Shown piece by piece: positions 3,845-40,341 of a stretch of DNA of 64,000 bases. Below the pieces are notes generated by a model that was given only the letters and a program-made list of their open reading frames with translations, did not search any database and had not been told where the DNA came from. This stretch comes from Diphasiastrum complanatum (lineage: Eukaryota > Streptophyta > Lycopodiopsida > Lycopodiales > Lycopodiaceae). Position numbers and translations under genes: made by a program. The stretch spans positions 27,098,178 to 27,162,177 of the forward strand of contig CM055109.1 of NCBI GenBank assembly GCA_029204225.1, in the 5' to 3' direction. Numbering within the stretch: the first letter of the stretch is position 1; each line of letters starts with the position of its first letter.

Positions 3845-3856
3845 CTAACAATGAGT
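3845..3856 (-). CDS. RSP2-like exon 8 (terminal, three codons and stop)
   Basis: A strong pyrimidine-rich acceptor (TTTCTCTTTTCAG) leads in phase 0 to ACT CAT TGT TAG, which would end the protein after three residues. This is the nearest in-phase solution after exon 7. A different final exon, further into the intergenic region, is equally possible. Confidence 0.35.
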   Translation of the reverse strand, partial: THC

Positions 3857-6800
3857 CTGAAAAGAGAAATACATTTTGTTTTTTTAAGTGTTGGATTGAA
3901 GGGCCCCCCGTATAATGGCTCCAAAGAAAAGAGAAATAAAAAAGAAAATTGGAATGGTTCAAGAATCTTAATAAGCAATTATATGAAGTTTGAACTAAGA
4001 GATGATATCATTGTGCAATTACTCATAATTGTCAAAGAAACATTGTAAGGCATTGGAAAAATAAGTATTAACACAAAGAGAGATACCATAGCATGAATTG
4101 ATGCTTTAAACAATATAATTAAGTATGAAAATAAAAAGAGCCTCCAAGTCATCAGAAGAAAAAGTGAAGACTATCAATCCAAGTAAAAAAGGAGAATTAT
4201 TTGATGAGACATGAAATCAATTCTCACCTTGCTTGCATTGTCACATCTTTCCTTCAAATTTTGATGTTTGATTCTTGCAACTGTTAAATCCTTCACTAAA
4301 ACAAGCCATTGTTTTCCAAGCTAAACAAGAATGACAAAATTAGGATTTTCAAAATGTTGTAAGACCATAATAATGATCCATACAAATGTTTTTTTTTTTT
4401 TATGTCTTTTGAATAAAGAGGGGTACAATTGGTGATTCAGAGGCATATTGCTTTCATGTGTCCATGAAAATTAAGCATTCTAGAAGTAATACTTACATAT
4501 CCGATAGGTGACTCGTTAACAAGCTTCTCATCTGGCAAATCCTAAATGACATGCAACATACATAATTTTTTGAAAATTTGACCTTTGTTTCAAGATATCA
4601 CTACCAAACTTGTAAAAGGCATATAGTCAATCAAAGTTGGTATGGTGCTTCATCAATATCTTCTTAGACCATCATTTTTCCTTCATGGGAACATGGGTTA
4701 CGGATTGAAGCTAACAAATGGATTCAAATTAACAACTTTGGATCTGTAATGATGCAACAAGTTTTGGATGTGACATCCTCAATCATAACTACTTAATCAA
4801 GGCGATCAAGCTGATTAGACAAGCATCTCTATTTTTTAGGACAAAAATGTTTAAGTAGGAGGAGTGCCATGTACTTTTAGTACATCAGTGCTTATCAATG
4901 TATTAGAATATCCAGTGTAAGCTTTGTTAGGCCCAAAAGGAGCTATTAGCATTAAGAATAAGGTGGTTCCCTCTTTAGGCCATCCAAAGTACTTAAATAA
5001 GGATAATAGGCCAACAAGGGCCCAAAGTAGACTTAATAAGACTTAACAAGGGCCTTCAAGATAGTTATGTTTAGTTAAGTTAGGGGATTGTCTATAAGTA
5101 AGCAAGAGACATCATTTTACGGATCTTTTGGCTCATTCACAATTGAGAGAAGTTGGAGCTGCATCTCCTCTTCCTCCTTTGTGAATGTGAGCCTTGGGAT
5201 TTCATCTTGCTAGGTCTCATGTGCCCAATACACATGATCCATGCTCTATTCAATGCTTTGTAATCATTTGTTCATTCCTATTGTGATTCATGGAGATTCT
5301 TGTGTCATTTGCTTCATTTGCTTATGCAACATGCTATCTTGAATAGTTTGTGTTTCTCTTGCTTCTAGCTTTAATTTCATTGTTATTGCTCTTAGGCTTG
5401 GGTTTGGCAACCTATAAAACATACTAGTCTCTATTTTAATGTGTTCAAGTATTCACCTATCTAAATTTATATCAGGTATAAATATATAGTCCATCGATAG
5501 GATATAAAGTGAGGTCAGATATGTATACAACCTACATAAACAACAAAACATATTCCAATATATTTATTATGGGGAAATTATTGCATATCTTTTTATCATT
5601 CTTTTATTCTTGCATCCTTGGATGTACGACCTTTTTTTGATACTTCAAATGAACATCATATCTATTGGTGGATTTGTGGATACTTACGTAAGGCAACTGT
5701 AAATTACCTTGAAGTCTGAAAGTCTAATATCAGATGATCTGTTATGGAAATATTTACACCCTTGATCTCATCTATAGATTAGTTTAACCCTTTGTAGTAG
5801 TGTATTCCATTTACATTTTCTTGAACTAGTGAAAGGAAAAAGAAACTCTAGCTTTTAATCCCTTGGTGCAGTTAATGAGCAAACATGTAAAGGTTTTAAT
5901 GGATCTCTATTTTTTTTTCAAAATAAAAAAACATCATAATTTTCCCATATGGATTAGCAAAAGGAGGTGGAAAAGTTGTAAGAACTTACATCAATACATT
6001 TATCTCCAAAATTCCACTTCACAAGGTCTTTTTCTTGGGAAGCATCATAGTGCTTAAGTTCCTGAGAAAGATTGTGTGAAAAAAAATTGGATCGAAATGC
6101 ATTCACCAAAGATACACGATAAATTTGACTGTTGGCATCATCAAGTGATAAGATTCAAAATGGCAATTGATACACAAATGTCTTAGAATTGCAAAAAAAA
6201 AAAAGATCTCTTATAGTTATTGTACCAATAAACCTTCTCGCAACAAGACTTGTTCTTGATTGTCTCGATCTTTCAAAACGTAGATACATCAACCCTTTCA
6301 CCCAATTTATGGATCAAGCAAAGAGAGTAGAAGAGAAGCTGATTTTTAAGTTTACTCCTTGCCGTAGCAGAAGTTCCAGCAAGCTATCTTTTTGTATGAA
6401 CCATCTTATTGATGTATAAAAGTGCTTTTTACCTTGCGTTTCATGTATCCTTATAATTGATACTTGATCTATTTGCATTTTGTATCAATTTCAGCATGTA
6501 AGTTGATTGTCTGTCGTAGACATTGATTATGAGTCTGGATAATGGCATGACCTGATTTTGTCGATATAGTTGACTCTCAAAGTCATTGAAGAAACTTGGA
6601 AGTAGTTAATGGCTTATGAAAAGTTAATTAAGAAAGTATAGGAGGCCCACAACTCATAAAAAGTGAAAAGGTGAGGCACATGAAGAAAATCCACTATAGA
6701 GGGAGTCGATTTCATCATCCTCCATTGTTTGGTAAAGGATTTCTAGTGTTTAAAACCTATACACGAACTTCCAAAGGGTGATTTCCAACAATCATCCTTT

Positions 6801-9800
6801 CGATGATCAAGATGAGAACTAAACAGCAAAAACAAGTGATCACTTTGTTTTCAAGTTTTAAGAGGTCTATAAAATTTCCACTTTTAGGCCTTAAGTCTAG
6901 GACAATTGAGCCAATAACCAAATTTTAAGATTGTAATTGTTTCTTTTTCATGTAGGAATTGTATATTGGTAATTCTAGCATAGACAATAGTAGCACAAAT
7001 TCGTTTCTAACCATTGATGCTTTTTTCCTTTAAAAGAAATTTTTTTGCATTCTAAAATGCTTGTTCCAAAACATGTTTGCAACAGAATGTGTTCTGCTAC
7101 GTTACTAAGAATCTTAGAAACCCGTTTCGACCCAAACTAGTCAAAACATACTATAAGTTCCGGAACATATTGGGTCGGATGTGGTACTTTTGTGAAAACA
7201 CTGTACTTTAGGACCATAAATGGATCTACAAAAGATCCACAAGAGTGATTGGATGCTTGCTTAACAATCTATCAAAAAACTAGACACAAAAAAGTTGATC
7301 TAGATTGGCAATTTGACAAACAACAAGCATTAACAATCAAAAGCATTGATAAACATTGAAATCCGAGCCCACACGTGTGTACTACAGGCTGTAGTACGGC
7401 CTTCAACCTGAGAAACAAGTAGAAATTGATTTGGTTTCATTTGGATCACAAAAACTCAATGTACATAGTAAACTAGCTTGAGATTGCCAATGAGCTCCAA
7501 AAATTTTCTATCTTCTCACTATGGAGAGAGGGAATACATAGCAAATTCGACTTCCTTCTTAAAGTTAGGTGGATTTCCAGCATGTAATAAGGAAGTTAAC
7601 TCACTCTCCTTGACCTAGAATGAAATCCTAGTCTATTTCCTAGAGTTATGCTTGGTAGGTAGCTAGTTGGTCAAATTTTCACCTTAAACTTAGGTGTAGG
7701 TCCTATAAAGTAGGGATGACCATCAAATAGACATGACCAACTCTCTTGACTTGACCTAACCTACATTAGGATGGGTTTCCCATGTGGCATCATGGCCTCA
7801 CATGTGTGGGACCCACTTGTGTACACAATTTACACTATTCTACATGGTTTTTGATCAAGCTAGATTTGCCAATTTTTGGCAAATCTTCACAGTACTAGGT
7901 TAAAAAAAAAAAAAACAAGCATTTTTTTACCTTTGTTACATAATTACGAATTTTTTTTCTTCAATTTTTTTTGGCCACTTTCCGGAACGGAACGGAACGC
8001 GTTCTGGAACAACTATGTTAAGCACCAAGGATTTATTTGGCTTGTAAAGTCCTCAACAATATTTGACTTTCTTTCCTTGCAAAGATTAAACTCTATAAAA
8101 AGATGTTGGAAGAAGATCTGGGAAATTATTTTTTAAAAGAGAGATGAACTATGTTGCCAACATATTAAGAATTTTGACATCCATAAAGAAAACTGCATCC
8201 ACACATCATCGCCCATAAGAGGGCGATGCAAAAGTTGGAGAATACAGCCCATAAAAAGGTCAGAAATTGTGGACGTGGAAAAAATTCGGCTATATAATTC
8301 AAATTCCATATGGAACTTTTACGCTTGGGACATGATTTTCTAGTGACCTTTCCACCGAGTTCAATGTCCGTTCACTTATGGCTCAGCCTAATGACCTAAC
8401 AATAATTTCACAAGCGTGAAAGATCTCTACAGGTTCTGTTTCCCAATACATAATATAGAGACTAACCAGTCAAGTTATACCATGCATTTATAGTAATGTT
8501 TTGTAGAAGACAGTTCTATAAGTATATAGAAGGAAACAAATTAGTCTTGCACTTTTTGTTTCATTGAGAATGCTAACACAATGCCTTTACAAAACTTAAA
8601 GATTCAATGTTGCTCAGCTCCACAAATCTCCCCCAATATGGATGACAAGAAATTAGAACTTACTAACGAGTCATCAAGTCATTTAACAAGTTTTTCCTTT
8701 TCAGGACACTAAAAACAGTATGTCAATGAGGTAATTTTTAGAAAAATATTGGCTTACATTATAGAATGATGTCTTGATGATTTCTCGAACTTTCACCCAA
8801 TTTTCAACGATCTCCTTTGTATATCCTAGTATGTGAAGAACTCCCTGCATAAGATCAATTGAATGGCAGCCTTAGGGTCCAACATGCTCAAGGATGATTA
8901 CACTGGGACAACCACAAGCAAAAAGAATAAGTAAAAAATTAAAGAAAGACATTCAACACCTAAGTCGACATTTCAAATCCAATGGTTATTCTAGCTGTTC
9001 ATGTGGTTTTTGATAGAGTCTATTAAGTAGTGCATTTACTAGGTGTGCAACTGTAATATACTTTCTAGGGTTGATAGCTTACTGCATATATTTTTCTGAA
9101 AAGTATAGCTAATAAGTGTGATAACAAACATTCCTATAGTATTTGTTATTGTATTATGTTCTTACAAAATGTTGGTGAGTTGTCTTTTGACCAGTCCATT
9201 CTACTGCCGATGAAGCAGATCAGTGTAAGCGGCACGGACTTGGCATTTCGACATTTTACATTTGAGAACGTGAACAAGGGGTAATAGCAAACTCTCACGA
9301 GTATGAACAGAGATAAACCCCTTGTGGCATGTTACCCTTGACCTCAAATACTAGTGTTGCACTCACATCCTTTTTTTCCCCTTATCGTGATCTAAAGAAG
9401 AGATCAATCCAACTTTTAAAGGTGTTCACTCAGTATGTACTCAATGCAGCTTGAGAATCAGTGGTTCAGACAGCGTTTAGAATCAGGGTTTTCAGGAAAG
9501 AATAAGCCAGGAAATAACTCACAGGATCAATCGATCCAAGAAATATATGCAAGCAATGCCATTTTTCTTCACACCTAGATGTATTCTGTGTGCTTAACCT
9601 ATGCCAAAAATCCCGCCAGTTTATTTGGTCATTTGAGAAGGACTCACTGTAATTTCAAGATTATCCAAACTACCAGTGAAGGTCTCAAGAAAAACAATAT
9701 ATGATATAAAAATCGAGCGAGAATATCATGGAATTCGTGTGAGATGTCCGTCCGAGAATATAATTGCTCTTACACAAGACAATCGTATGATGGGGTTGTA

Positions 9801-14376: not shown

Positions 14377-14436
<60 letters not shown>

Positions 14437-17400
14437 CTTCACTTCTATGATAGTCTCAATCACAATAGCAAGTAAGTTTTGGAAATGCTGAATGTAGTCC
14501 TTGGACTTGGAAAGTTTGACTTCAAGCCTTCCAACCTTTTGGCCACGAATTTCAATGGCATTTTTCAGTTTCTCACAGTTTTTCTCAGCAATTGTTACCA
14601 TTTTACGATACTTTGCTATCTCTTTCCTCAAATCCTTCAAATATAATTTTCTTCTGTCCTTTATAGCATCCTCTCCCTCCTCTGGATACACTTCCTCTTC
14701 CTCTTCATCCTCTGCTTTGGCATCATCTTCGGCCATTTCCTCCTCTTCCTCCACTTCATCTTCCTCCCCTTCCTCCTGACCCTCCTCAACCTCGTCTTTT
14801 CCTTCATCCAACTCTTCATCATCCTTGTGTTCCTTGTCATCATCTCCTTGATTGTTTCCTTGAACTTCCAACTTCGATAGTCGCTGTAGGGCTTTTGTGT
14901 CGGCTATTGCCTTCTTCAAAGTCTCTTCTCTCTGATCCTTTATTTGTTGCAACTGGACTTGGATTCTTTTAATTAATACTTCGGTCATGGGCTTGTTTGT
15001 GATTTTTGAATGATTGGCATTCATTACATCACTGATGGAGTCAGCAATTGCTGTAATGAATATAACATCTGATTCAGAAAATGGTCTACCAGTTCCATAT
15101 CTTTCTACTTTTAAAGTATCTGCACATAGCAGTGCAGCAACCTGCATTGTCCAACACCCATACTTAGCTTCATAAGTTAAGCACGCAACCTTATACCATG
15201 ACGAGCATGAGAATTGATATCTACCAGTTCTCTACACAAATTAAATGTTGAATATTCAAATCTTTTATCACACAATATGTACAAAAGCAGTTAAAAAGAA
15301 CAATATCAGAACACTTGAGTTGTTCTCAAAGTGACAGATGAAAGACAAAATGAATTCCTGATGAAAGCTCCAGACATCTCATGCTAAAGAAAGTACAAAT
15401 AACATATTCTTTCATGGAAAAAGGTCACCAACAAGGGCCGTCATAGCTTAGAGTTGAACTGGTTATTGTGAATCTTTACTGTAAGCTTAGAAGCCCGTTC
15501 CGACCAAAATGGGTCAGAACGTTCTGTTCCGACCGTTCCTGAATTCATCAAGAAAAAGATGAAGTGAATACTGAAGAACGGTCTATAATAATCTACAATG
15601 ACTATATAGCTGGAAACCGGGGCAATTGTGCATATCGGGAATATTCATCATATGAAGTGAAGGCTAATGCTCATCCATTTCGCATATATGTAGCTGAATA
15701 GCCCTTCCCCCGTCTCTGAATCCGATGTTTCCGTTGAACCGATCGGGGCGGCTCGGACATACAACTTCTGAGTCACGGATCTCTGTACCCTGCCTGCGGG
15801 CACCTTATCACTGTGTGTTCAATCAAAGGTGAATGTCCACAAGGCTTCCTGCTTTCTTTCCGCAAGCTCACCATCGCTGGAAACTCCTGGACCACGTCCA
15901 TGATATGCTCTTTACGTATTTTTCTGGTAATTGTGCTTTTTATGTCCAATTCATGTTTGTCATTTTATTTGCTGAGTGATTTACTGTTCTTTTTCCTTTG
16001 AGCTTAGATGCTCCTCAAGCTTCCTTAGATATTATGGTTTTTTTTTTCCTTCGTAAAAAAACATTTCTTTTTAGGTTCTCGTGCCGGAACGGAACGCGTT
16101 CGGAACGTACTGGGTCGGAACGTTTTTTCCAAAATAAAAAAACAGGTGCTGCTGGCCACGAACTTCATACTTCTTGATAATACATTGAGCGATGCTTGAT
16201 GATACATTGCGGGATGCTAGACATCAGAAACGCTGGAAAACATACAGTTCAAGCAGAAACAAATTTGAAGAAGTTACTAACTATCGGTTACTTTCACGTC
16301 CTCCACATCTCTGTCATACTCATTTGCGTGTATTTTTTCTAAGTGTGGCTTTCTGTTGCTACTGTGCTATTTGTCACTGCGCTGTGCACATATTCAGATG
16401 ACTGGACCTTTCTAAATCTTCGTTGCATTCCGTATCTCGGTTATGCATGAAATCTAATGCTATATTTGAAAACTCACCCTCTATCTAGATGTCCGTGCCT
16501 TGTCTGACGATAATGCATATCTTGTCTGACTGCTGATACAGAGCTGCTTATAGCCAAAAAAATCTCGCAGAACTTAACAAAATTCTTGCAGCTCCCGTTG
16601 ATCCTAGAATAGCTATCTGAGCCACGTTCTTAAGCTCTTGCTGATCCTAGATTAGCTATTCCGTTCCTTATCTCAATTCCTTTGTTAAATAACGTATTTT
16701 AAAAAAAAAAAATTGGGTCAAGTTCCGGAATGGAACGCATTCTGGAACGCGTTCCGTTCCGGAACGGGCAACTAAGCTACACTTCAAGAGATAATGGAAG
16801 GAAATCACATATATAAAACCACTGATCTAAGCAGTTTCAGCCTGTAAATACCAAAAGCAACTACGAGACCTCTGAAAACACTCCATCATTTCACTTTTTC
16901 TAACTGACAGAGATGACCAGAATTGCTGATTCGATAGTCGAGCAAAACGTATATAGTACTTGATATGTTAAGAATGGGTTGAGATTTCAAACTAAAAGAG
17001 GAAACAGTCTCAAATCCTAACAAGAGTACATGGTTCTTTAAGAACTATTTAAGGAATAGAACTAAAAGATTAAGAAAGTTGCACCAAATCAAAATGGGCA
17101 ATGAGCTGAAACTCAAGGAAACCAGATTCGGAAGTTGTCCAAACCTCCCCAAAATGACTGTGCAAATTAGGTAGAGAAAGAAGGAATAAATGAATGAGTA
17201 AATCTATAGGTCATTTGAAACTTACCGTACCATGAAACACCTTAATAGATTACTTCATTCAAAAAACGGAATAATTGAGTACTGCATACCATATAATGTT
17301 GATATTATTCGATGTCTTTATGTATAATACTGTATGCATTACATACACCTTTAAAATACTATATATAGAGCATCAATTTTCAAGATAGCATTCAAGCCAA

Positions 17401-29400: not shown

Positions 29401-32400
29401 AGTAAAGGGGGGTCTAAATTTATAGTATAATATTGTAAAATAATTTTGAGTCCCAAAAGTAAGAGGGTTCTCTCATAACTACTCATAGAGGTGTACTCAC
29501 AAAAGTATGGACCATGCATTCATAACAACTATGGAAGAGAAGAATGATAGAAGGGAGAGATCACTAGGAAAGGTAAGTGCTCTAATATTGTGTTATTCAC
29601 TAAATCACAAATTTTGGCATCACATGAAGCATAAGGGGACAATGTAAGACGTCTAACAAGTAGTCTCCAACTTAAAAAACTTGAAAGAACACTAAATACA
29701 ATAAAGAGCTGAGCCCCAACTAGGAAGAACAATGAGTCACCTACAAAGAAACCAAGAGTGAACCAAATCATAAGCTATTCAATGAGTATCTCTACTATTT
29801 ATAGTCTTCTAGAGGATCCTGTTGGACTCTTTTAGGAACTCACAATGGTCGAACATGAAAATAGAGGGCAACATAAATCATGGAGGGAAAGCATGCACCC
29901 CTTTACAAGTGCCTTGAAATACTGACTAAAAGGAACCCAGATAATATCAGAATGTGCTTTGACGGGCATAATTGCACTATATATCCATAACAATTGACAA
30001 CCACTACATATTTCTTTTGCGGTTCTACTTATTAGTAGTTTATGGAGTTCACCTTTGCTCCCTCACTATCAAAAGCTTTATTCAAAGTTTCCATTACATG
30101 TACATTATGCCTTATGGCATAGTGACAACTTAGCATTAATGCATAGCTAATTCTGTTGTGATGAGGTGTGTTTCCTGAGGCTTCAAGCCTTCTCCCTACA
30201 TCAGCATCGCCCCCCACAACAATGTCACTTGAATATTTATCAGGGATATATGGTCTTTGAGGATCTATTATCTTAAGAGTGACAAACTCAACAGTAGCTT
30301 TGCTTTAATTGATCAAAGCTTGCTTGTTGAAGCTCCTGTTTTGAGTCATGTTTGTCACAGGCATAGGGACGATGGTGTAGTCCTTACATACGGTCTAAAA
30401 TAACAGCCAGTCCAAGGAACAATTGTACTATCAAATCAATTGGCACAGGCCATGCCATGATCCCAATAACTTCTTTAGGAGCCCGTCTTACTCCATCAGT
30501 AGACACAATATGACCTAAACACTCAAGCTCTCACCTACACTATAAGTCAGGATATCATCAAAGGAATTCACAACAAGATTACCCATATAAGGTTTGTACC
30601 CTTGCACAGAGGGTGCCTTAAAACAAGAAAGGCCCAATTAAAGGTCTTCCCCATGTGTAAAAATTGGTCAAATTGTTACTCACAAGAAGATTGTAGATTG
30701 TTGAAATGTACACCTCCCTTTCCAAATTAGTTGACAATATAACTGACGTTTGAAGCATCTTAGAGCTCAATAAAATAAACTCCTTGCAAAAAATCTGTGC
30801 ATTTTGCAAAAATCTGTATTCATGTATTTGCCAGGATAAGTATAAGCATTGATAACAAGGATATGCCAACATTAGTAGACTGTCCAGATTCCAGAAGAAA
30901 CATAATATCATGTTCAGTTGAAGCCTATCTTAGATAAATTTTATTCAAAGAATTTAAGCTCCCTGTGCATGAGCATTTCCAACAGCTGCAATTTTAGTAG
31001 AAAACTTAAACAAAAATGTTTAGTATCGTCATAATAGTGACCAAAGGGTTTAGAACATAAGATTTATCTTAGATGATTGGCCACTCTAGGTGCATCTTGA
31101 AGAGAAAGTTTTCATGGAAAACCAAGATATAAATCTAATGACTAGTAGCTATTTGCTGATATTGGTGATGTGGTTGATACTATTCTCTTCAATGCATCAA
31201 TAATAGCTATCTTATTTTTTTCCCCACCTTCTTTGTAAAGTGCATTCACAACATGCAATTGTTGAATTCCTCGTGTCAACACTTCATATGATACGGGTAC
31301 CTGAACAACAACTAAATATCACAAAATGCACAAACAACAACTAAATATCACACCATAAGACAGAGTGTACCATTTAGAAAACCTCCAACACCATCTACAT
31401 TATCAAATGTCATCATAAACAAGAATAAACTACCTCCACTTCCTCATGAAAAAATACAAGAAAAGGTGAATGCTATAGTGCAAAGTCTAACTTGAATTAC
31501 AAAGCAAAGTTCCATTAGTCAACATAGCTTTTAACTAATTCTTAAGGAATGCCAATTTATATCTTTAATTATAACATTGGGAAAACATTGCAATGCATTA
31601 TGTGGAGAGGAAGATGAAACAAGGATGATAAGAAAAGTGTACAAGAAGAGCCTACAAACAAGGAAAATACATGGGCTACAATTGATCTTAAAAATGTTAA
31701 TCTGCCCAGGTTTAATGAGTACAAAAGCTTGACCTTTAATCTGCTTCAAGGTTCATCGAGCCAACTGATTCACTTTCATAGCATCAATAGAAAACAAGTT
31801 CAATATAGGAGCAGCATCCAAGCAGTCATCCAGAAACAATCAGCTACCATCTCAGGAGGTTCTCAAAATGTTGGAAATTCCATGAAAAAAATTGAAATTC
31901 ATCTTAAACATGACAAAAGTTTGCAATATTCTGTATATCTCATCAACGGAGCAGAAGAGAACATGCCATGGTTAATATTTTCTGTACCAGTTTTCTGTCG
32001 GCTGACATGTTTAACATGAATTTGTTATTTGATGTTGCAGACACATAAACCAAAGTTTTCTTCTTGTAATTAGGAGGCTTTGGAGGTCTTTTCACATTTT
32101 CCATGCTGGTAGTTATATTTTCTCCCTCAGATGTCTCAACATGCTCTGCATCTCTGGTTTCATTGTTATTTATGTTCTCATCTTGCTCCTGCCCTTCATC
32201 CTCAGTTTCCTTGTTGACCTCCTCTTCTTGTTCCTCCTCTGCTTCATTTTGACTTCCTTCGCCATCCCCTTCAAACTGCTCCTCATCTAGATTATCTTCT
32301 TTAGCTTTGAATGCATTGGGAATCCACAATTTATCTATCACCACTGCAATATAGGAAGAGGAACTACCTACAGGTAGATATATAAAACCTGAAAATTAAG

Positions 32401-35400
32401 CAGTGCTTTTTCTTTAATGTTTTGAGCTGAGTGTAAATTAACACATAAGATAGAATTTTCTCGTTAAAAAGCAAAGGAAATCCGAAATGCCATAAGGCTG
32501 TACAGCAGGTTTGTACATTTCAGGTCAAAGGTTCAAGAGTGAATGGATTTCTAGTGTTTCAGCCTACTTGCAGGTTCAATTTCAGCATATTATAGGTCCA
32601 ATTTCAACTCAATTGCTTGTATACTTGGAACTTGTAAGTTGTGCATAAGACATGGGGGTAAAACGTTTATGTACATAGTACACCCCACTTGTGCTAATTA
32701 GGCAAGTAATAACAAGTAAGTTGAAGACCCATGTGGGTTCTAGAGCTAGAATTAGCAAGACACTACCTCTATACATTACATGCTAAATGTAGCCCATAGT
32801 TTGGAGGGGTTTCCACGCCCTACTACTCTTTGAATAATCATTCAAGTTGTGTGAGCTTTGAAGTCTTCTCTCTCTTGCTTTTGTGTTCTACTCCATAGCT
32901 GGTTTTTTCAAGCTTTCATAGTGTGCTTACTATGTTGTTATGATACTCCATAGCTAGGCCTTGGAATTTGTCATGGTATTAGAGCAGGTTATGTTGTGGT
33001 GAAAGCTTGGACCTGTTTTGATCAAATTCCTGCCAGTCCTGAAGAACAGCTTATCTTTGAGGAGGGCGCACTTTTTGTAGGGGCATCTGATCTCTGTGCT
33101 ATCTGCAAGGTTGGAGTACTGTTGGCAAGGGGAGTACAGTGAGCCAAAAAGTTTCTAATTTGGGACAAAAAATTTTGCGTCTTTTTGAATAGCCAGGACT
33201 GTAGGAGGACGCTTTCTACTGTGGGGACTTCAGTGAAAGTTCTGAGTGGATCTTGGAAAAGGGCTAGGGCAGCCATACAGGGGGATAGTTTCAAATCCAA
33301 AAACTAAGGGTTATTAAGCAAGTGGCTGCATACCCTACCCCAGTTTAACTTTTGTGTTTTATTTCTATCCAGCTATGTCTAGTGTTGCAGAGAGCATGCT
33401 GAGTGAAGCCAGTCGGCTTGATGGCACTAACTTTAGCATATGGAAATTCAAGATCAAGAACATTCTTGAAGACAAAGAATGTTGGAAGCTTGTGACAGGT
33501 GAGGAGCCTGTTCCAACATCTGAACTTGAACTCAAGGACTATATCAAGGGAGGGGAAAAGGCACAAAGGATCATCAACATGTCAGTGAGGCATAATGTGA
33601 TTCCTCTAATCAAGTCAGCCAAAGGGCCTGTGGATGCATGGCACATTCTTTGTGCATTGTATGAGACAGCAAGTACAACTAGGTTTCTCTACTTGAAGAA
33701 CAAGTTGTATACTCTCAAAATGGAGACAAGGGAGACAATTACTAATCATCTTACTAAGATTCAGGATCTTAGATATCAGTTTTCTGTGCTTGGAGAGTCT
33801 ATTGCTGACAAATACTTGGTGCCAATAGTTCTGTATAGCTTGTCAGATGCTTATCAGAACTTTGTGATGATGATATCTGTAAGAGAGAAGATCCCTACCT
33901 ATGAAGAGGTCTATGGTCTCTTGTTACAGGAGGAGATGAGGAGAGTTAATCTCTCCAAGAGGGAAGATATCCAGGAGCATGCCTTTGCTTCTAAGAAGAA
34001 GCAAAATCCAGCCAAGGATAAGAAGAAAGGTAAAGGCAAGAACAAAGGAGCACCACAAACACTTGAGCAAGGAATGGAGAACTTGCAGATGTCAGAAGCA
34101 CAATCCTCCTCGAATACTTCTTCCACACCTCGAAGGAAGGGGAATTGCAATTATTGTGGTAAATATGGACACCTTGCTTTTGAGTGCAGAAAGAAGCTTG
34201 CAGAGCAAAAGAAGGGCACAAAGAAGCAGGGAGGAAATGTTGTTGAGAGTGCAAAGTGACATAAGGCAAGCTAAGTTATTTCATGTTGCATTGGCCTCAC
34301 AAGCTACAACAGGTGGTTGGTACATTGACTCAGGTGCTTCAAAGCACATGACCCCTCATAGGGATTGGTTTGATACCTTTGTGGGGATTTGTGATGGACT
34401 CTTAGGTGTGCCTAGGTGACAACTCAACACACAAGGTCAAGGGAAAGGGCACATTACCTGTAAAGCTTCCATCATGAGAAGTCAAAGTCATTAAGAATGT
34501 CTTATATGTACCAAGACTTGCTCAAAATCTTCTTTCAGTAGGAGCTATCACTCAACAAAATATGAAAGTAGAATTTAATGCTACTTCTTGTCTTGTGTTG
34601 GACTTGAGTGATAATATGAAGGTTGTGGCCAAAGGATTAATCTATATAGGTTGTACACTTCTATCCCTAGTCGGCATGCTTATACAGCAAAAGGAAGTGA
34701 TGTGGATAGGTTGTGGCATGAGAGGTATGGACATCTTGGCTACCAAAGCATGCAGGTGTTGAACCAGCATCATATGGTGGAGGGGCTTCCAGTTAAGCCA
34801 AGCTCTTCAGTTTGCGAGGCTTGCGCTATGGGAAAACAACAAATACAGAAGTTTCCCAAGGAGAGCACCACCAGGGCAGCAAGTATACTTGACTTGGTAC
34901 ATTCAGATTTGTGGGGGCCAACCCAAACAGGGGGGAGCATATTACTTTATGACCTTTATTGATGACTTCTCACGCAATATTTGGATTTATTTCTTGAAGC
35001 TAAAATCTGAAGCATTCAAGTACTTCCAGCATTTCAAAGCTTTGGTAGATAAAGTGCTCAGGTCAGACGGTGGTGGAGAGTTCATTAAGACAGAATTTGT
35101 GGAATTCTGCAAGGCCAATGGGTTCAAAAGGCAGCTTAGAGCTCCTCATACCCCTCAGCAAAACGACGTAGCCGAGAGAAAGAACCGAACTATTGTGGAG
35201 TGTGCAAGGTGCATGCTCAAGGCAAAGGGGTTGCCCAACTCTTTTTGGGGCGAGGCAATGCACACAGCAGCGTTTTTGTTGAATAGAAGTCCAACTAAAG
35301 CTGTGGAAGGCAGGACTCCAGAAGAGACATTTAGCGGCATTAAGCCCAAGGTTGACGCTTTGCGAGTGTTTGGTTATACGGCCTATGCCCATATTCCCAA

Positions 35401-38400
35401 GGATAACAGGAAGAAGCAGGATGCTAAATTAGCAAAGTGTATTTTTTTGGGATACAGTGAAGAAAGCAAAGCTTACCGACTTTACGATCTTACTACCAAG
35501 AAGAGGATCATAAGTCGAGATGTGACCTTTGAAGAAGATCAAATGCCACATATAGAGGAACTTGAGATGGAGGATGGTACAAGTGAATTTGTGCCAATAC
35601 TTGATGATCCACATCCATATATTGGGAAGCCTCAGGATGATCATATGAGTGATCAAGAGGGAGAATCTGAGGAGGCTAGGAAGCAGAAGGAAAGGGGCAA
35701 ATATGTTGAGTCCTATTCACCGTCTTCGTCACCAACTGCAAGGAAGAAGTTTCCCAAGTAGTATTGGCAAACTGTGCAGGATGGTTTGATATTGGATGAG
35801 GGAGAGAGTAGCAATCCAGGGGCTAACACCAGGAGACAAACTATGCACTTATGACTACTATTTTGGATTCACAAGATCCGCATACATTCGTTGAGACAGC
35901 AGATGAGAAGGTATGGCAACATGCTATGCAAGAGGAGTACAACTCCATTCTCAAGAATGATACATGGGATGGTGAAGTTACCAAAAGGGAAGCGTTCTAT
36001 TGGCTGTAAGTGGGTCTACAGAACCAAATACAAATCGGAGGGGAGCATCGAAAAGCATAAGGCAAGGCTGGTTGCTAAAGGCTATGCACAGAAGGAGGGC
36101 TTGGACTATGATGAGACGTTTGCACCGGTAGCTAAGATCACGTCTATCAGGTTGGTTTTAGCATTGGCTGCATTTTTTGGTTGGGAGGTCCATCAAATGG
36201 ACGTGAAGAGTGCTTTTCTCAATGGACAGTTGGCTGAAGAAGTCTACATGGAACAACCACAAGGTTTTGAGGCTAAGGACAAGGAAACTAAGGTATGCAG
36301 GCTTAAGAAGGCCTTATATGGTTTGAAGCAGGCACCCAGGGCCTGGTATAGTCGTATTGACGGCTATTTTGCCAAGGAGCAATTCATAAAGAGTCAGTCG
36401 GATTGCAACCTGTTCGTGAAAGAGGAAGATGGGAACATTGTTTTGATAGTTCTCTATGTGGATGACTTGGTCATCACGGGCAGCAATGGGCAGCTTATTG
36501 AAAAGGTGAAGGCTCATTTATCAAATGAGTTCGAGATGAAGGATTTGGGTCAAATCCACTATTGTCTTGGCTTGGAGGATTGAAAAAAGAAAAACTGTGT
36601 GTTTATTTCCCAAGCTAACTATGCATGTGAAGTCTTGAACAGGTTCAACATGCAGGATTGCAAACCCGTTTCCACGCCCATTGATAGCAGTAGTAAGCCA
36701 TCTAGAGATGATGGCACTTCTTTTGTGAACGAGACTCTTTATAGGCAGCTTGTGGGTAGCCTGATTTATCTCACCACTACAAGACCGGACATTTCCTATG
36801 CGGTTGGTGTAGCAAGCCAGTTCATGAGTTCTCCAACTGAAGCACATTGGAAAGCAGCCAAGAGGGTTTTGAGGTATGTCAAAGGGACAACCTGCTATGG
36901 GATTGAGTACACAGATGACAGAAAGCTTCAGCTTGGAGGCTTTACCGATTCGGATTGGGCTGATTGAAAGTCAACCACAGGTTACACTTTCAACCTTGGT
37001 TTAGGGGCCATTTCTTGGTGCAGCAAGAAACAGCCCACAGTTACCCTATCATCAACAAAGGCTGAGTACAAGGCAGCGGTGAAAGCTACCTGCGAGGCAA
37101 TATGGCTCAGGAGACTTGTTGGGGAGGTGCATATTCCACAGGATGGTCCTACTATTCTTCATTGTGATAGCCAGAGTTGCATCCAGTTTGCCAAAAATCA
37201 TGTGTACCATGCTCGTACGAAGCATATTGAGGTGGATCAGCACTTCTTACTAGAGAAGATACAAAGCGGAGAAATTCAGCTCGAGTACTGTGATACCAAC
37301 GATCAAGCAGCAGATATCTTTACTAAGGCACTTAGTAGAGAAAAAATTGAAAAGTTTCGTAGCATGCTAGGTGTTGGTATGAACATAATAGCCATTGAGG
37401 GGGGGGTGTTGAAATAAATGCCTATTTTGCCCCTTAAGGCTTGTATACTTGTAACTTGTAAGTTGTGCATAAGACATAGGGGTAAAACATTTATGTACAT
37501 AGTACACCCCACTTGTGCTAACTATGCAAGTAATAACAAGTAGGTTGAGGACCCATGTGGGTTCTAGAGCTAGAATTAGCAAGACACACCTCTATACATC
37601 ACATGCTAAATGTAGCCCATAGTTTGGAGGGGTTTCCACGCCCTACTACTCTTTGAATAATCATTCAAGTTGTGTGAGCTTTGAAGTCCTCTCTCTCTTG
37701 CTTTTGTGTTCTACTCCATAGCTGGTTTTTTCAAGTTTTCATAGCGTGCTTACTATATTGTTATGATGCTCCATAGCTAGGCCTTGGAATTTGTCACATA
37801 TTTCTCCAAAGAAAATTTTCATGCAATGTTATGAACTGCATTGAAGAGTATTGGCATCCCATGAAGTACAAAGACATTCAAATAGCAACCACAGAGCCTT
37901 CTGCAATTAAAAAAGCTTAATGAAAAGGCTGGCAACAGCTTGGGCAGATCTGCAACAAATGTTTCTTGAATATACGACTCCTTACAAAGAGCTCAAGACA
38001 CCAAACTTAATAAATTAAGAAACGAGAGTCTCTAACTCTTATTTACAATTAGTTAGGAGCAATGTTGCAGCGGATCCGGAACTGCTGCAACAGTGATCCG
38101 GAATGAGCGTTCCGGATCGCCTTTTTATTTTTAAAAAAAATTTATTCATAAAAATTATAAAAAAAAAACAATAAATAGCATAAAAAAACCTTAATAGTAG
38201 AAAAAAATTCTACAGACTGTCTAAACAATTTTACACACCAACAATTCTGTTTTTTTTGTGATCGATTTTTTTTTTAATTGCACGTTCCGGGAATGAGATT
38301 TCCCAGATCGTGTTCCAGAAAGCATTCCGGAACAGAACGCGCAACGTTGGTTAGGAGTATACTATGGCATATATCCAAAGGACGAGGGATACAAAGTGCC

Positions 38401-39787
38401 CCATAATGATGAAGATACTTATCAACAAGTGTATAGACTTAATTAGCAACAATCATGGGTGGTTTAGCAATAAAATGAGAGTCAGCCCTAGGAAGTGCAT
38501 CAAATCAAGTAGAAAGAATAGTAGTAGAGCACAAATCAAACCAAACAGACACAAAAGACTACCATTGATCTTTTTAGAGCAATAATGATTATTGTAATAA
38601 AGGTTTGAAGAAATTGCATCCACTAAATCTGACAATCACTAAGTGCCTTTTGAGAGTTAGTATATGTGAGAGATTCATGACTTGTGTATAATTAAAAAGA
38701 GCTGGTTTGAGATAATGTCAACATTTCTTCAAAGCATAACAATTGTTGCTCGGTGAAGAAAACCACCAATACCGAGCATCAACATCAATTTTGCTGGCAA
38801 ATTTCTTGTCAAAATCAGGTAAAGATAGGACAGGAGCAATGACAAATGTTTGGGGCAATTACAAGAACCTTGACACAAAAGAGTTCATCAATGGTGGTAT
38901 TTTTGCGTAGTGAAACATGTAGAGGATGATCGATGGTGGAAAATTTGAAATAGACTTACGCAAATGAGTAGCTAGACCTATAAACATGTGAACTTCATGA
39001 GTATCAAAAGATTGAGGCCACGTTTGAATGGATGTGCAATTTAGAAGGATCCAAACTTAAAGTACATGAGAAACCAAGAATCCAAGAAAGTTAATTTGAG
39101 ATACAATGACATTTGGATTGTTTGGCATACAATTGATGAGTAGACAAGAGTACAAGATGAGTCAAAAGATCTTTGACTAGAAGCAAGCCTATCATCAAAA
39201 CAAACAAGCCAATAAGCAGTTTGAGAACACTTTCTATAACATTTTGAGAAAGTAGCATCACACGAGATTCACACAAACTAGAGGTAGTATGAAAAGCAGT
39301 CTTAGGCCCATCTTGGTTGGAAAGGATTAGAGAAAAGATTCAATATTCTAAATTAGTGTACTCGTACAATAAAAATAGGCGAGCGTGTGCCACTCGGACC
39401 ATCGCATTCAATAACAGACTGACAATTTTAAGAGTTGGATATGTGTGCAATGTACATGTGGCATTGCTCATCATACCACAGCTATTTCTATGGTGGAAAG
39501 TCCCAGCCTCAGGACTTTCCATGTATTAGGAATCATGGGCTCAAGAGCTGTAGCCCAGGGCCTAGGATTTTTAAAGCGTGGGTGTAAAACTATGCTAAGG
39601 CCTATTCATACCAGGATTATTTCATCGATACTTGTGCATAACAAGCTTGGGATAAAGTTTAGTAGTCGATTGCGTTAAGTCCATGGGCTTTAAGAGGCGT
39701 GATGTCCCAGGCTTATAACGTAGGAATTTTACACCCTTACGCCGTGTCTCTCTCTCTCTCTCTCTCTCACTCACTCTCTCTCACTCA

Positions 39788-39821
<34 letters not shown>

Positions 39822-40341
39822 TTAGATATATAATAGAGTAATTAGATATAACCTTAAACCAAAGTTCCTTAGATATAACCTTAAACCAAGGTTCCCCATG
39901 GCACAGGTGCCGTGGGGTCTGAGTGCCGTGGCAAGTGCGGTATCACGGCACATGTGTCGTGGTACGGCACATAGGTGAATACTATCTAACAAAAGGAGGA
40001 CATGGACCTGTGAAGGTGGATATTGCGTTCAAACATGCGTCCCATAGCAGATAAGGATCATCTTTGATGTTTCTCACATTATCAACTGCTGCTTTCCGCC
40101 TGCTTTCTTCTAACTCCTCTTGAAGCTTGGCTTCTTTCAGCTTATGCTCGCTTTGCTTTTCCATTTCAGCTCGCATACGCTTTTCCTCATGAAAATTGTC
40201 CAGGATAGACACATTCTGGATGTATTTAAGAAGCCATAAACTTAAGTAGGCGATTGGATCAGGAGGCTCAGCTGCAACAACTGCTGAGCAAGCTCTTGCT
40301 ACCACCAATCCTACTGTGTTTTTCAGATAATCGGCGTCCAT
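3845..40341 (-). CDS. RSP2: RSP2-like radial spoke protein (DPY-30, split GAF, coiled coil), 8 exons
   Basis: Proposed join, minus strand: 40341-40008, 32343-31988, 31300-31181, 15141-14437, 8844-8758, 4541-4497, 4320-4228, 3856-3845, about 583 codons. Residues 5-43 form a DPY-30 dimerisation motif ([17 protein letters not shown]). Residues 45-95 are a charged helix. A GAF-like fold starts near 95 ([17 protein letters not shown]), is interrupted by an acidic insert (about 125-195), and resumes through [11 protein letters not shown] and [18 protein letters not shown] second acidic stretch and a coiled coil follow. In Chlamydomonas, RSP2 has DPY-30 and GAF domains, sits in the radial spoke near the spokehead and binds calmodulin. 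By analogy this protein would act in the sperm axoneme. Introns obey GT-AG and phases match throughout, and all frames are open. The family match comes from architecture, not alignment. Exons 3, 6 and 8 are the least certain, and an extra exon in the 16-kb intron cannot be excluded. Confidence 0.7.
4228..4320 (-). CDS. RSP2-like exon 7
   Basis: A 31-codon phase-0 exon between CTTGTTTAG/CTTGGA and GCAAG/GTGAGA. It encodes [20 protein letters not shown] and eleven more residues, an amphipathic, basic helix. A basic C-terminal helix would fit the calmodulin-binding tail described for RSP2 of Chlamydomonas, but that is inference only. Confidence 0.6.
4497..4541 (-). CDS. RSP2-like exon 6 (15 codons)
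   Basis: A 45-base phase-0 exon between CATTTAG/GATTTG and GGATAT/GTAAGTATTA, one of the best donors in the gene. It encodes [15 protein letters not shown]. It is only 176 bases upstream (in gene sense) of exon 7, and the joined peptide reads smoothly into it. Confidence 0.55.
4542..8757. other. RSP2-like intron 5 content
   Basis: A stretch around 4900-5480 looks like a decayed solo LTR: promoter-like CTATAAGTAAGC near 5092 and a T-rich end, but no target duplication could be set. Two parts of the GGAACG-rich repeat family lie at 7113-7190 and 7978-8012, with A/T homopolymer runs between. No other gene is visible. Confidence 0.35.
7113..8012. repeat. GGAACG/CGTTCC-rich terminal repeat family, two ends
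   Basis: At 7113-7190 the sequence begins CTTAGAAACCCG and contains GTTCCGGAACATATTGGGTC. At 7978-8012 it reads CCGGAACGGAACGGAACGCG. The same motifs recur at 10553, 15486, 16081, 16716, 26000 and, with full termini, 38060. These may be the two ends of one 0.9-kb element or of two copies; no target duplication was found. Confidence 0.45.
8758..8844 (-). CDS. RSP2-like exon 5
   Basis: A 29-codon phase-0 exon between CTTATGCAG/GGAGTT and TATAAT/GTAAGC, encoding [20 protein letters not shown] and nine more residues. It follows naturally from the end of exon 4 to form one helix-turn-helix-like segment. Both splice sites match consensus well. Confidence 0.65.
8845..11899. other. RSP2-like intron 4, first part: no gene seen
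   Basis: A/T-rich sequence with scattered short GC-richer patches (9190-9250, 10130-10200). One end of the GGAACG-rich family is at 10553-10586. Nothing else could be assigned. Confidence 0.3.
10553..10586. repeat. GGAACG-rich repeat family, one end
   Basis: GAACGCGTTCCGTTCCGGAA is followed by a GCAACTAAG end, the same ending as the copy at 16776. It is preceded by T and A runs at 10507-10550. Confidence 0.45.
11900..14095 (+). mobile_element. decayed Ty3/gypsy pol (protease, RT, RNase H, integrase end)
   Basis: Pieces of one polyprotein follow in the expected order with many stops and shifts: protease end ([19 protein letters not shown], 11911-12010); RT ([20 protein letters not shown] and PFGRTNK, 12590-12690; the catalytic FDDIL is shifted out of frame near 12735); connection ([18 protein letters not shown], 13140-13195); RNase H ([13 protein letters not shown], 13375-13415; [13 protein letters not shown], 13520-13560; ending near DALSHLS, 13710); and an integrase tail (WDQHLCLA, about 13990-14075), with most of integrase deleted. 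The order protease-RT-RNase H-integrase defines Ty3/gypsy. It inserted antisense in intron 4 of the radial-spoke gene. The protease resembles that of the minus-strand copy at 27510-29087, so both come from one lineage. Confidence 0.85.
12772..12793. repeat. (CT)11 microsatellite inside gypsy RT
   Basis: A pure CT run directly after the remnant of the catalytic FDDIL motif; it probably expanded after the element died. Confidence 0.9.
14379..14434. repeat. (GA)28 microsatellite abutting exon 4 donor
   Basis: A pure GA run on the plus strand, CT in transcript sense, beginning three bases downstream of the exon 4 splice donor. Such a tract is prone to length change and may influence splicing. 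Confidence 0.95.
14437..15141 (-). CDS. RSP2-like exon 4 (GAF end, acidic and coiled-coil region)
   Basis: The acceptor is GACAATGCAG/GTTGCT and the donor GAAG/GTTCTC; 235 codons, phase 0 at both ends. It starts with the GAF core [11 protein letters not shown] and [17 protein letters not shown], continues with a Lys/Gln-rich helix, then about 70 residues of nearly pure Glu/Asp, then a coiled coil ([19 protein letters not shown]). A (CT)28 tract in transcript sense begins immediately after the donor. Reading on through it would give only a Leu-Ser repeat and a stop at 14356, so splicing here is far more likely. Confidence 0.75.
15486..16776. repeat. GGAACG-rich family: possible element with CTTAG termini
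   Basis: The left end at 15486 reads CTTAGAAGCCCGTTCCGACC. The right end at 16776, inverted, reads CTTAGTTGCCCGTTCCGGAA, so the outer 16 bases form an inverted repeat with two mismatches. A further internal copy of the motif block lies at 16081-16128. The flanking 8-mers differ (ACTGTAAG and CTACACTT), so the two ends may belong to different insertions. The terminal pattern resembles the copy at 38060-38349. Confidence 0.45.
15630..15905 (-). other. GC-richer coding-like patch, unidentified
   Basis: This patch is clearly richer in G and C than its surroundings. On the minus strand, after TTACCAG at about 15925, a frame reads [17 protein letters not shown] and then meets GTGAGC, a good donor. 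A second frame further on reads [20 protein letters not shown]. It lies inside the possible CTTAG-ended element, so it could be captured gene sequence. I do not recognise the protein, and the phases do not fit the radial-spoke gene. Confidence 0.3.
20437..20449 (+). other. primer-binding site after a probable LTR end
   Basis: TGGTATCAAAGCT directly follows ATCTTACA, so an LTR ending in CA would stop at 20436. The LTR start was not located. The internal region that should follow is decayed. Confidence 0.4.
20880..21305 (-). mobile_element. Ty1/copia remnant, gag fused to pre-integrase
   Basis: The minus-strand frame reads [20 protein letters not shown], the typical N-terminal copia gag pattern. 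Some 80 codons later it reads [15 protein letters not shown], the pre-integrase zinc region (one Cys replaced by Tyr). Everything between has been deleted, so this is an internally deleted, non-coding relic. Its gag start region is duplicated in tandem at 21224-21305. Confidence 0.65.
21224..21305. repeat. 41-bp tandem duplication
   Basis: Two near-identical copies starting GAAGTGATTCCATCCTTATT lie at 21224 and 21265, differing by one base. It is a local duplication inside the copia remnant. Confidence 0.9.
21306..25157. other. intron 3, middle part: no recognisable gene
   Basis: A/T-rich sequence with short random open frames on both strands. T-rich, promoter-like text around 22200-22420 could be an old LTR but has no defined ends. 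Confidence 0.3.
25158..25413 (+). other. coding-like plus-strand segment ending at a consensus donor
   Basis: From the TGA at 25155 onward the plus frame is open for about 85 codons and ends CTTAG/GTAGGT, a good splice donor (alternatively a TAG stop three bases on). The peptide has a Ser/Pro-rich start ([20 protein letters not shown]) and an acidic helix ([15 protein letters not shown]). Base composition is higher in GC than around it. There is no early ATG, so it would be an internal exon or a captured gene piece. I do not recognise the family. It lies antisense within intron 3 of the radial-spoke gene, about 600 bases before a GGAACG-family end. Confidence 0.35.
25990..26053. repeat. GGAACG-rich repeat family, one end (inverted)
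   Basis: Read on the minus strand it begins CTTAGAAACCTGTGCCGACC and continues with GGAACGTACTGGGTTGGAAT. This matches the left-end pattern at 7113 and 15486. Confidence 0.5.
26190..27000 (-). mobile_element. LINE fragment with Pro/Ser-rich leader and RT start
   Basis: In the minus direction a leader starting [18 protein letters not shown] is followed by long low-complexity Ser/Pro/Leu-coding DNA. Then come RT blocks: [20 protein letters not shown] (26560-26620), [31 protein letters not shown] (26340-26390) and [13 protein letters not shown] (26230-26270). One frameshift at about 26425 separates the first block from the others. The catalytic YADD region is missing. The pattern (KA.D.D, then NYR, then GQAGFR) is that of plant LINE-type reverse transcriptases. 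The Lys-rich plus-strand open frame at 26582-26812 is a shadow of the low-complexity stretch. Confidence 0.75.
27001..27509. other. GC-richer spacer with small internal repeats and a G17 run
   Basis: GCTGGAGACCTG occurs twice (27008-27040), and AGCTACAGCT / GGAGTAGCGA type words recur to about 27290. A run of 17 G lies at 27491-27507. It may be the 5' part of the adjacent LINE. Confidence 0.35.
27510..29087 (-). mobile_element. Ty3/gypsy element: PBS, gag, protease, start of RT
   Basis: In minus orientation: an LTR end (CTATAACA, ending at 29087); a primer-binding-like TGATATCATAGG (29075-29086); gag start [19 protein letters not shown] (28761); a decayed zinc knuckle (CNTCFD...H....Y, about 28360-28440; the last Cys is now Tyr); protease ([11 protein letters not shown] in one frame at about 28140-28170; [20 protein letters not shown] at 27945-28015); and the RT entry (EFVEPFLP near 27760, then [17 protein letters not shown] near 27620). 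It stops at the G run at 27491. Many frameshifts make it a dead copy. It belongs to the same lineage as the plus-strand copy at 11900-14095. Confidence 0.75.
29088..30029. other. probable LTR of the gypsy element; outer end unknown
   Basis: By position this should contain the 5' LTR of the minus-strand element, whose inner end is at 29087. No second copy is available to fix the outer end. No genes seen. Confidence 0.3.
30030..30620 (-). mobile_element. Ty3/gypsy RT-RNase H fragment
   Basis: Minus-strand pieces in order: [14 protein letters not shown] (catalytic FDDIL, about 30540-30580), [10 protein letters not shown] (30490-30515), [16 protein letters not shown] (30400-30470), FDQLKQS (30320-30340), then an RNase H-like tail ([13 protein letters not shown], 30185-30225; HNVHVMETL, 30080-30110). 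The order matches RT connection and RNase H. It lies upstream, in element sense, of the copy at 27510-29087, so it must be a separate insertion or a rearranged part. Confidence 0.7.
30621..31180. other. intron 3, part next to exon 3: nothing recognised
   Basis: A/T-rich, with one 97-codon minus-strand open frame at 30618-30911 that resembles no family I know. Confidence 0.3.
31181..31300 (-). CDS. RSP2-like exon 3 (GAF middle part)
   Basis: A 40-codon phase-0 exon between GTTGTTCAG/GTACCC and ATA/GTATCA. It reads [20 protein letters not shown], which resembles the GAF segment between the second strand and the ligand pocket. The donor is weaker than the others. The expected loop before the next GAF strand is short, so another small exon may be missing between this one and exon 4. 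Confidence 0.55.
31988..32343 (-). CDS. RSP2-like exon 2 (acidic insert within GAF)
   Basis: The acceptor is TATTGCAG/TGG and the donor CTG/GTACAG. The two leading bases complete the codon split by exon 1. The exon encodes residues 112-230: a short strand ([12 protein letters not shown]), roughly 70 residues dominated by Glu, Gln, Asp and Asn, then [16 protein letters not shown], which resumes a GAF-like strand. The frame stays open past the donor for some 40 bases, so the exact end is a choice made on splice consensus and phase. Confidence 0.7.
32615..32973 (+). repeat. copia 5' LTR (start truncated)
   Basis: It aligns with 37439-37796 of the 3' LTR and ends TTTGTCA. The first 32 bases of the 3' LTR have no counterpart here. 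Confidence 0.9.
32974..32988 (+). other. copia primer-binding site
   Basis: TGGTATTAGAGCAGG directly follows the 5' LTR and is one base from the standard initiator-Met-tRNA-complementary TGGTATCAGAGC. Confidence 0.85.
33375..34259 (+). CDS. copia gag (294 aa, intact frame)
   Basis: Structural protein that packages the element RNA into particles. The ATG at 33375 (MSSVAESML) is preferred over an upstream in-frame ATG at 33354, because the family motif [17 protein letters not shown] follows at the usual distance of about 15 residues. The gag fold runs to about residue 205 ([31 protein letters not shown]). A Lys-rich linker follows, then a zinc knuckle C-x2-C-x4-H-x4-C ([14 protein letters not shown], about residues 261-274). 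The frame is unbroken and ends TGA at 34257. Pol starts in the +1 frame overlapping its end. Confidence 0.92.
   Translation: MSSVAESMLSEASRLDGTNFSIWKFKIKNILEDKECWKLVTGEEPVPTSELELKDYIKGGEKAQRIINMSVRHNVIPLIKSAKGPVDAWHILCALYETASTTRFLYLKNKLYTLKMETRETITNHLTKIQDLRYQFSVLGESIADKYLVPIVLYSLSDAYQNFVMMISVREKIPTYEEVYGLLLQEEMRRVNLSKREDIQEHAFASKKKQNPAKDKKKGKGKNKGAPQTLEQGMENLQMSEAQSSSNTSSTPRRKGNCNYCGKYGHLAFECRKKLAEQKKGTKKQGGNVVESAK
34260..37417 (+). pseudogene. copia pol (protease-integrase-RT-RNase H), broken
   Basis: Protease [12 protein letters not shown] (34320-34355) is followed by a TGA at 34417. The pre-integrase zinc region is at 34690-34840 ([24 protein letters not shown]). Integrase has [19 protein letters not shown] and NDVAERKNR (34890-35180), with a short deletion before LRSDGG. 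RT covers 35950-36580 with LYVDDLVI. RNase H runs from 36950 to 37330 ([30 protein letters not shown]). Stops: TAG at 35759, TGA at 36581, TGA at 36965. Two compensating shifts bracket about 35840-35965. Two stops fit TGG and one CGA codons changed by single transitions. The frame ends TAA 11 bases inside the 3' LTR. Confidence 0.92.
37398..37406 (+). other. polypurine tract
   Basis: GAGGGGGGG immediately precedes the TG start of the 3' LTR, the expected plus-strand primer. Confidence 0.85.
37407..37796 (+). repeat. copia 3' LTR
   Basis: 390 bases, beginning TGTTGAAATA and ending TTTGTCA. Complete by its TG...CA ends. Confidence 0.93.
38060..38349. mobile_element. hAT-like MITE with 8-bp target duplication
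   Basis: The 290-bp element starts CAATGTTGC and ends GCAACGTTG (9-bp terminal inverted repeat, one mismatch). It is flanked on both sides by the direct repeat GTTAGGAG (38052-38059 and 38350-38357). Eight-base duplications and CA-starting termini are typical of hAT elements. The subterminal parts are rich in TTCCGGAA / GGAACG words; the middle is A/T only and carries no coding frame. It is the best-defined copy of the GGAACG-rich family seen elsewhere in the window. Confidence 0.8.
38358..40007. other. intron 1, part next to exon 1
   Basis: Mostly featureless A/T-rich DNA. A CT/CA microsatellite is at 39746-39822, and a tandem pair of TTAGATATAACCTTAAACCA units at 39839-39888. A GC-richer patch with repeated GTGCCGTGG / CACGGCAC words (39898-39975) looks like the end of another small element. 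Confidence 0.45.
39746..39822. repeat. compound (CT)n(CA)n microsatellite
   Basis: CT runs interrupted by CACT units, followed by (CA)9. Confidence 0.9.
40008..40341 (-). CDS. RSP2-like exon 1 (start codon, DPY-30 motif)
   Basis: The exon starts at ATG 40341 ([13 protein letters not shown]) and runs 111 codons plus one base to the donor ACAG/GTCCAT. The DPY-30 motif begins five residues after the start, as usual in this family, which supports the start choice. The helix after it is rich in Glu, Lys and Arg (residues 52-83). The last residues open the GAF domain. Confidence 0.8.

Follow-up and report, generated by a model that had tools for sequence, protein, structure and literature searches.

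We analyzed a window of 64,000 nucleotides from the genome of the clubmoss Diphasiastrum complanatum. On its minus strand lies a gene resembling that for radial spoke protein 2 (RSP2), which runs from a start codon at position 40341 to a stop codon ending at position 3845. The gene model consists of nine exons, which, when joined in phase, give a frame of 1,809 bases encoding 602 residues, in which the sole stop codon is the terminal one. The eight introns, all of the GT-AG type, range from 176 to 8,548 bases and sum to 34.7 kb; introns 1 and 3 are in phase 1, and the other six are in phase 0. The original prediction placed both ends of the gene exactly but counted eight exons against the nine of the present model, and its statement that all exons stay open was borne out when they were joined. 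The exons are as follows.

40008..40341, minus strand: exon 1; start codon, DPY-30 motif, then a helix-like stretch; 111 codons plus 1 base; donor CAG/GT, phase 1
31988..32367, minus strand: exon 2; beginning of the GAF-like region, acidic insertion; acceptor CTGTAG/G, donor CTG/GTACAG
31228..31300, minus strand: exon 3; second piece of the GAF-like region
23690..23769, minus strand: exon 4; third piece of the GAF-like region; phase 1 acceptor CAAACAG/GT, joining exon 3
14437..15141, minus strand: exon 5; last piece of the GAF-like region plus acidic and coiled-coil-like runs; (TC)n repeat adjacent to the donor
8758..8844, minus strand: exon 6; 29 residues; donor AAT/GTAAGC
4497..4541, minus strand: exon 7, tentative; 15 residues; TTTAG acceptor, GTAAGT donor, phase 0
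4228..4320, minus strand: exon 8, tentative; 31 residues; GTTTAG acceptor, GTGAGA donor, phase 0
3845..3856, minus strand: exon 9, tentative; THC and the stop codon; TTTTCAG acceptor

Splicing of all nine exons into one transcript is predicted from the sequence. The last approximately 50 residues, encoded by exons 7 to 9, are assigned tentatively, with good splice sites and no homology support. In the joined frame, the GC content was 0.54, 0.29, and 0.38 at the first, second, and third codon positions, respectively. From base composition alone, the chance of 603 codons staying open was approximately 8e-19, a figure to be taken as a guide only, since the exons were chosen for openness. Longer forms of exons 3 and 4 (31300-31181 and 23794-23690) were rejected: the protein containing them scored 101.3 bits against RSP2, whereas the shorter, in-phase pair gave 119.8 bits and an alignment free of gaps in this region.

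The claim that the gene is RSP2-like and ciliary was supported by a search with the joined protein, residues 2 to 555 of which aligned with residues 9 to 529 of the 738 residues of Chlamydomonas RSP2 (7jrj_I; E = 1.3e-33, 119.8 bits). Exon 1 alone matched the same chain with an E value of 2e-17 (phmmer), and the GAF-like region alone matched the corresponding region of RSP2 with an E value of 2.3e-9. Exon 4 aligned without gaps to VKFFRKFPKIGSY of Chlamydomonas RSP2, and in the joined-protein search exon 6 aligned with ALLHLLGRPAASFSTWKRAHSHFSPRLFEDM of that protein. Against the Protein Data Bank, the open stretch of exon 5 alone gave a weak RSP2 match (E = 0.01), the open stretch containing exon 2 (31946-32395) alone gave no match to RSP2 at E<=10, and the C-terminal quarter of the protein alone did not recover RSP2. 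The likeness to Chlamydomonas RSP2 (PDB 7jrj, 7jtk, and 8glv) comprises the N-terminal DPY-30 motif, an acidic insertion in the next region, a second acidic run, and an LRNML..T..VKALLHLLG block, with their order kept. The acidic and coiled-coil-like stretches of exon 5 were judged by eye; the LLHLLG block is present after them, aligned to RSP2. The two proteins differ in length (738 residues in Chlamydomonas versus 602 here), with insertions and deletions in between, and past RSP2 residue 531 exons 7 and 8 are unmatched.

We scored seven pieces of the protein against RSP2 residues 9 to 360 and 480 to 529, with 500 shuffles each. The RSP2 segments were copied from the alignments; the scores carry no positions, and the order of the pieces was taken from the joined alignment. 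For five of the seven pieces, none of the 500 shuffles reached the score obtained on the expected RSP2 segment, while 43 to 464 of 500 did so on the other segment. These five were exon 1, the final part of exon 2 (score of 53 against residues 9 to 360), exons 3 and 4 together in their short form (score of 70 against the same residues), the start of exon 5 (score of 67), and the final part of exon 5 joined to exon 6 and two residues of exon 7 (score of 53). The long form of exons 3 and 4 scored 37 against residues 9 to 360, which was reached by 10 of 500 shuffles. Exons 7 and 8 together scored 40 against residues 9 to 360, the wrong segment for them (4 of 500 shuffles); this match, which fell at -2.3 bits within the DPY-30 stretch, was treated as chance. 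With an anchored query, the alignment stopped at RSP2 residue 531 and did not extend over exons 7 and 8.

DPY-30 motifs are found in several complexes, and the locus might instead hold another DPY-30 gene, such as one for a chromatin (COMPASS) subunit, followed by unrelated downstream exons. The exon 1 search did return six weak rows named "Protein dpy-30 homolog," with E values from 0.44 to 0.97. However, RSP2 at 2e-17 was ahead of them by many orders of magnitude, so that chromatin DPY-30 was rejected as the nearest relative, and the match to RSP2 continues through exons 2 to 6. We regard this explanation as exceedingly improbable. The matches that came next after RSP2 were DPY30 domain-containing proteins, with E values of 3.1e-8 to 3.9e-6 for exon 1 and 1.2e-5 to 4.1e-5 for the joined protein. 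DPY30 domain-containing proteins 1 and 2 (8wzb, 8j07, and 9fqr) have the DPY-30 motif and the stretch following it in common with the clubmoss protein, but they are only 159 to 177 residues long, and the match is limited to residues 1 to 80. The RSP2 of 9e5c (chain 2e), which we judged to be from a trypanosome by the name of another chain, TbRSP63, also shares the DPY-30 motif (E = 0.006 for exon 1 alone and 0.11 for the joined protein), but the match covers only approximately 40 of its 518 residues. Tetrahymena RSP2 is described as resembling Chlamydomonas RSP2 at the N terminus only (PMC12399478).

Of the domains that had been proposed, the DPY-30 motif in exon 1 was upheld by the direct RSP2 alignment across it, whereas its Pfam Dpy-30 score (21.9 bits, E = 1.4e-4) fell a hair below the curated cutoff of 22. 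The first joined model had scored 19.3 bits with this profile, and Chlamydomonas RSP2 itself scored 27.5 bits. When the whole genome assembly (1.745 Gb) was searched in six frames with Pfam Dpy-30, 42 candidates were obtained, none at E<=0.001, and 14 control genomes gave no match. A GAF domain after the DPY-30 part is what we would presume of an RSP2. The corresponding region of the clubmoss protein aligned with that of RSP2, as described above, but no GAF domain was recognized in the joined protein by the Pfam GAF profile. The same search of residues 9 to 360 of Chlamydomonas RSP2 likewise recognized none; therefore, the missing profile match does not refute the proposed GAF domain, and the profile test cannot decide the matter.

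The gene is present a second time in the same assembly. Contig C2098 matches positions 1 to 55629 of the window, except for 20006-22049, with 99.55 to 100% identity in long blocks (blastn); it appears haplotype-like, and we provisionally read it as the other haplotype. Over the 1,809 coding bases, the two copies differ by no substitutions and by one 15-base in-frame insertion. Eight of the nine exons are identical, and the 15 extra bases on C2098 lie in the acidic run of exon 5. The introns carry single-base changes, small insertions and deletions, and a 2,044-base presence/absence difference. Two intron features are given here.

20006..22049, no strand assigned: segment missing from C2098; 2,044 bases of intron 4; blastn
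32615..37796, plus strand: copia-type LTR retrotransposon with a broken coding part; intron 1, antisense to the gene

No direct repeat was found at the junction of 20006-22049; thus, loss of this segment from the other copy and its insertion here are equally likely. By eye, a piece of this segment resembles copia gag. The terminal repeats of the copia element in intron 1 (32615-32973 and 37439-37796) are 96.1% alike, and its Pfam matches to gag, integrase, and RVT_2 fall in three open stretches, between which stops or a change of frame intervene. This element was the one examined with regard to the claim that every transposon in the introns is decayed. Elsewhere in the window, a fragment at 1163-1846 on the minus strand matched the reverse transcriptase profile RVT_1 (30.2 bits versus a cutoff of 29.6). 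On the plus strand, 50618-52783 and 56339-57031 encode a G-type lectin receptor-like kinase, as seen from matches to B_lectin, PAN, and a kinase domain; the last of these is split between the two stretches, probably by an intron. A tRNA scan found no genes.

A (TC)n repeat at 14379-14435 adjoins the exon 5 donor and appears longer on C2098. Exons 5 and 6 occur a third time on contig C716 (81,401 bases), where they encode the same protein sequence and lack the 15-base insertion. The exon 1 search gave no match on C716, which may end before reaching that exon and is perhaps an assembly leftover. The exon 6 search found that exon on three contigs and nothing else at E<=10; for exon 1, the sole other match seen was a weak one on C17 (E = 5.6, 20% identity).

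These observations bear on whether the locus could be a decaying RSP2 pseudogene whose exons are still readable but whose expression has been lost. Such a reading would accommodate the long introns with transposon matter, the unconfirmed exons 7 to 9, and the exon 5 donor that abuts the (TC)n repeat. However, the coding sequence is free of stops and frameshifts in both the window and C2098, the only coding difference between them preserves the frame, and the partner genes RSP3 and RSP4/6 are present in the genome. We consider a pseudogene very unlikely. The frame, open on the window and on haplotype-like C2098 and matched in an alga, speaks for purifying selection, which is in agreement with the selection originally proposed. 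Judged from the sequence, the locus is in all probability a working RSP2 gene.

Matches to exons of other ciliary genes were found in the same genome, and the presence of RSP3, RSP4/6, and dynein is meant here in the sense of exon matches only. RSP3 gave six rows, which represent three exons seen twice (best E = 3.6e-16; two of the six rows with stops), and RSP4/6 gave four (best E = 2.8e-34; one with stops). The dynein heavy-chain stalk gave 16 rows (best E = 1.4e-22; two with stops) with a model that does not part axonemal from cytoplasmic dyneins. The stops in these rows may be exon edges. The same searches of 14 control genomes, a set containing no cilia-less plant, gave no match. Since exons of RSP3, RSP4/6, and the dynein stalk are present, motile cilia are likely in this plant. 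These exons, together with the long match to Chlamydomonas RSP2, support the core of the original prediction, namely that a plant with swimming sperm carries an intact RSP2 gene. The doubled RSP3 exons lie on contig C20 (16063573-16065648 and 16173043-16175118), in opposite directions, approximately 110 kb apart, and with equal scores, representing either an inverted duplication or an assembly artifact. Photosystem reaction-centre matches were seen in nine rows on contigs C6, C17, C3235, and C1464, eight of them with stops; these probably represent nuclear insertions of chloroplast DNA, for which reason plastid gene order was discarded as a guide to lineage.

Conifers and angiosperms are not known to have dynein heavy chains. 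It is reported that Cycas has most flagellar genes, that Gnetum, conifers, and angiosperms have lost many, and that Ginkgo lacks RSP2, RSP3, RSP9, and RSP11 (PMC9023351). Because Ginkgo is singled out there as lacking RSP2, the source implies that RSP2 is present in other plants with swimming sperm (PMC9023351); the RSP2 proteins of those land plants would be the expected direct orthologues of the clubmoss protein. A fern gametophyte transcriptome is reported to include radial spoke protein 9 as well as sequences related to dynein (PMC6027899). The gene had been taken to imply swimming sperm in a cycad, Ginkgo, fern, or lycophyte. A plant with swimming sperm is supported, but Ginkgo should not have been among the candidates, given its reported lack of RSP2 (PMC9023351). 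Clubmosses have swimming sperm, so an RSP2 gene is to be expected in Diphasiastrum, and the surprise expressed in the original prediction was overstated. Among open-licence papers we found none on this very locus, but the public genome annotation may well include it.

RSP2 pairs with RSP3 via the DPY-30 motif and binds calmodulin. If the clubmoss protein behaves as its family does, it would be located in the neck region of the T-shaped radial spokes in sperm flagella, where it would help to pass the central-pair signal on to the dynein arms and so enable the flagellum to beat. Expression would be predicted during sperm formation in the gametophyte. In the literature, RSP2 is described as a spoke-neck protein with a DPY-30 motif (PMC6678824 and PMC12399478), a dimerization motif (PMC6678824), and knockdown of Tetrahymena RSP2 lowers the levels of Rsp12A and Rsp12B (PMC12399478). 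In Chlamydomonas, a long C-terminal part of RSP2 reaches the surface of the spoke head and is absent from the mammalian spoke (PMC10774353). In contrast to the mammalian spoke, which lacks that part, the clubmoss protein is of the longer form. It is conceivable, though we consider it doubtful, that the clubmoss has retained RSP2 in its long, algal-type form, whereas mammals possess a short DPY-30 protein at most, and that its C-terminal end, encoded by exons 7 to 9, has become shortened and diverged in a way of its own. If so, the contact between neck and head in the spokes of clubmoss sperm would be built unlike both the algal and the animal ones.

RSP2 has already been followed across land plants (PMC9023351), and nothing is overturned by the present analysis. 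It provides an exon map of a spoke gene, along with a second copy that is haplotype-like, for a clubmoss, whose lineage diverged earlier than those of ferns and seed plants. Together with its partner genes, this RSP2 helps to trace the loss of spoke genes on the way toward pollen tubes.
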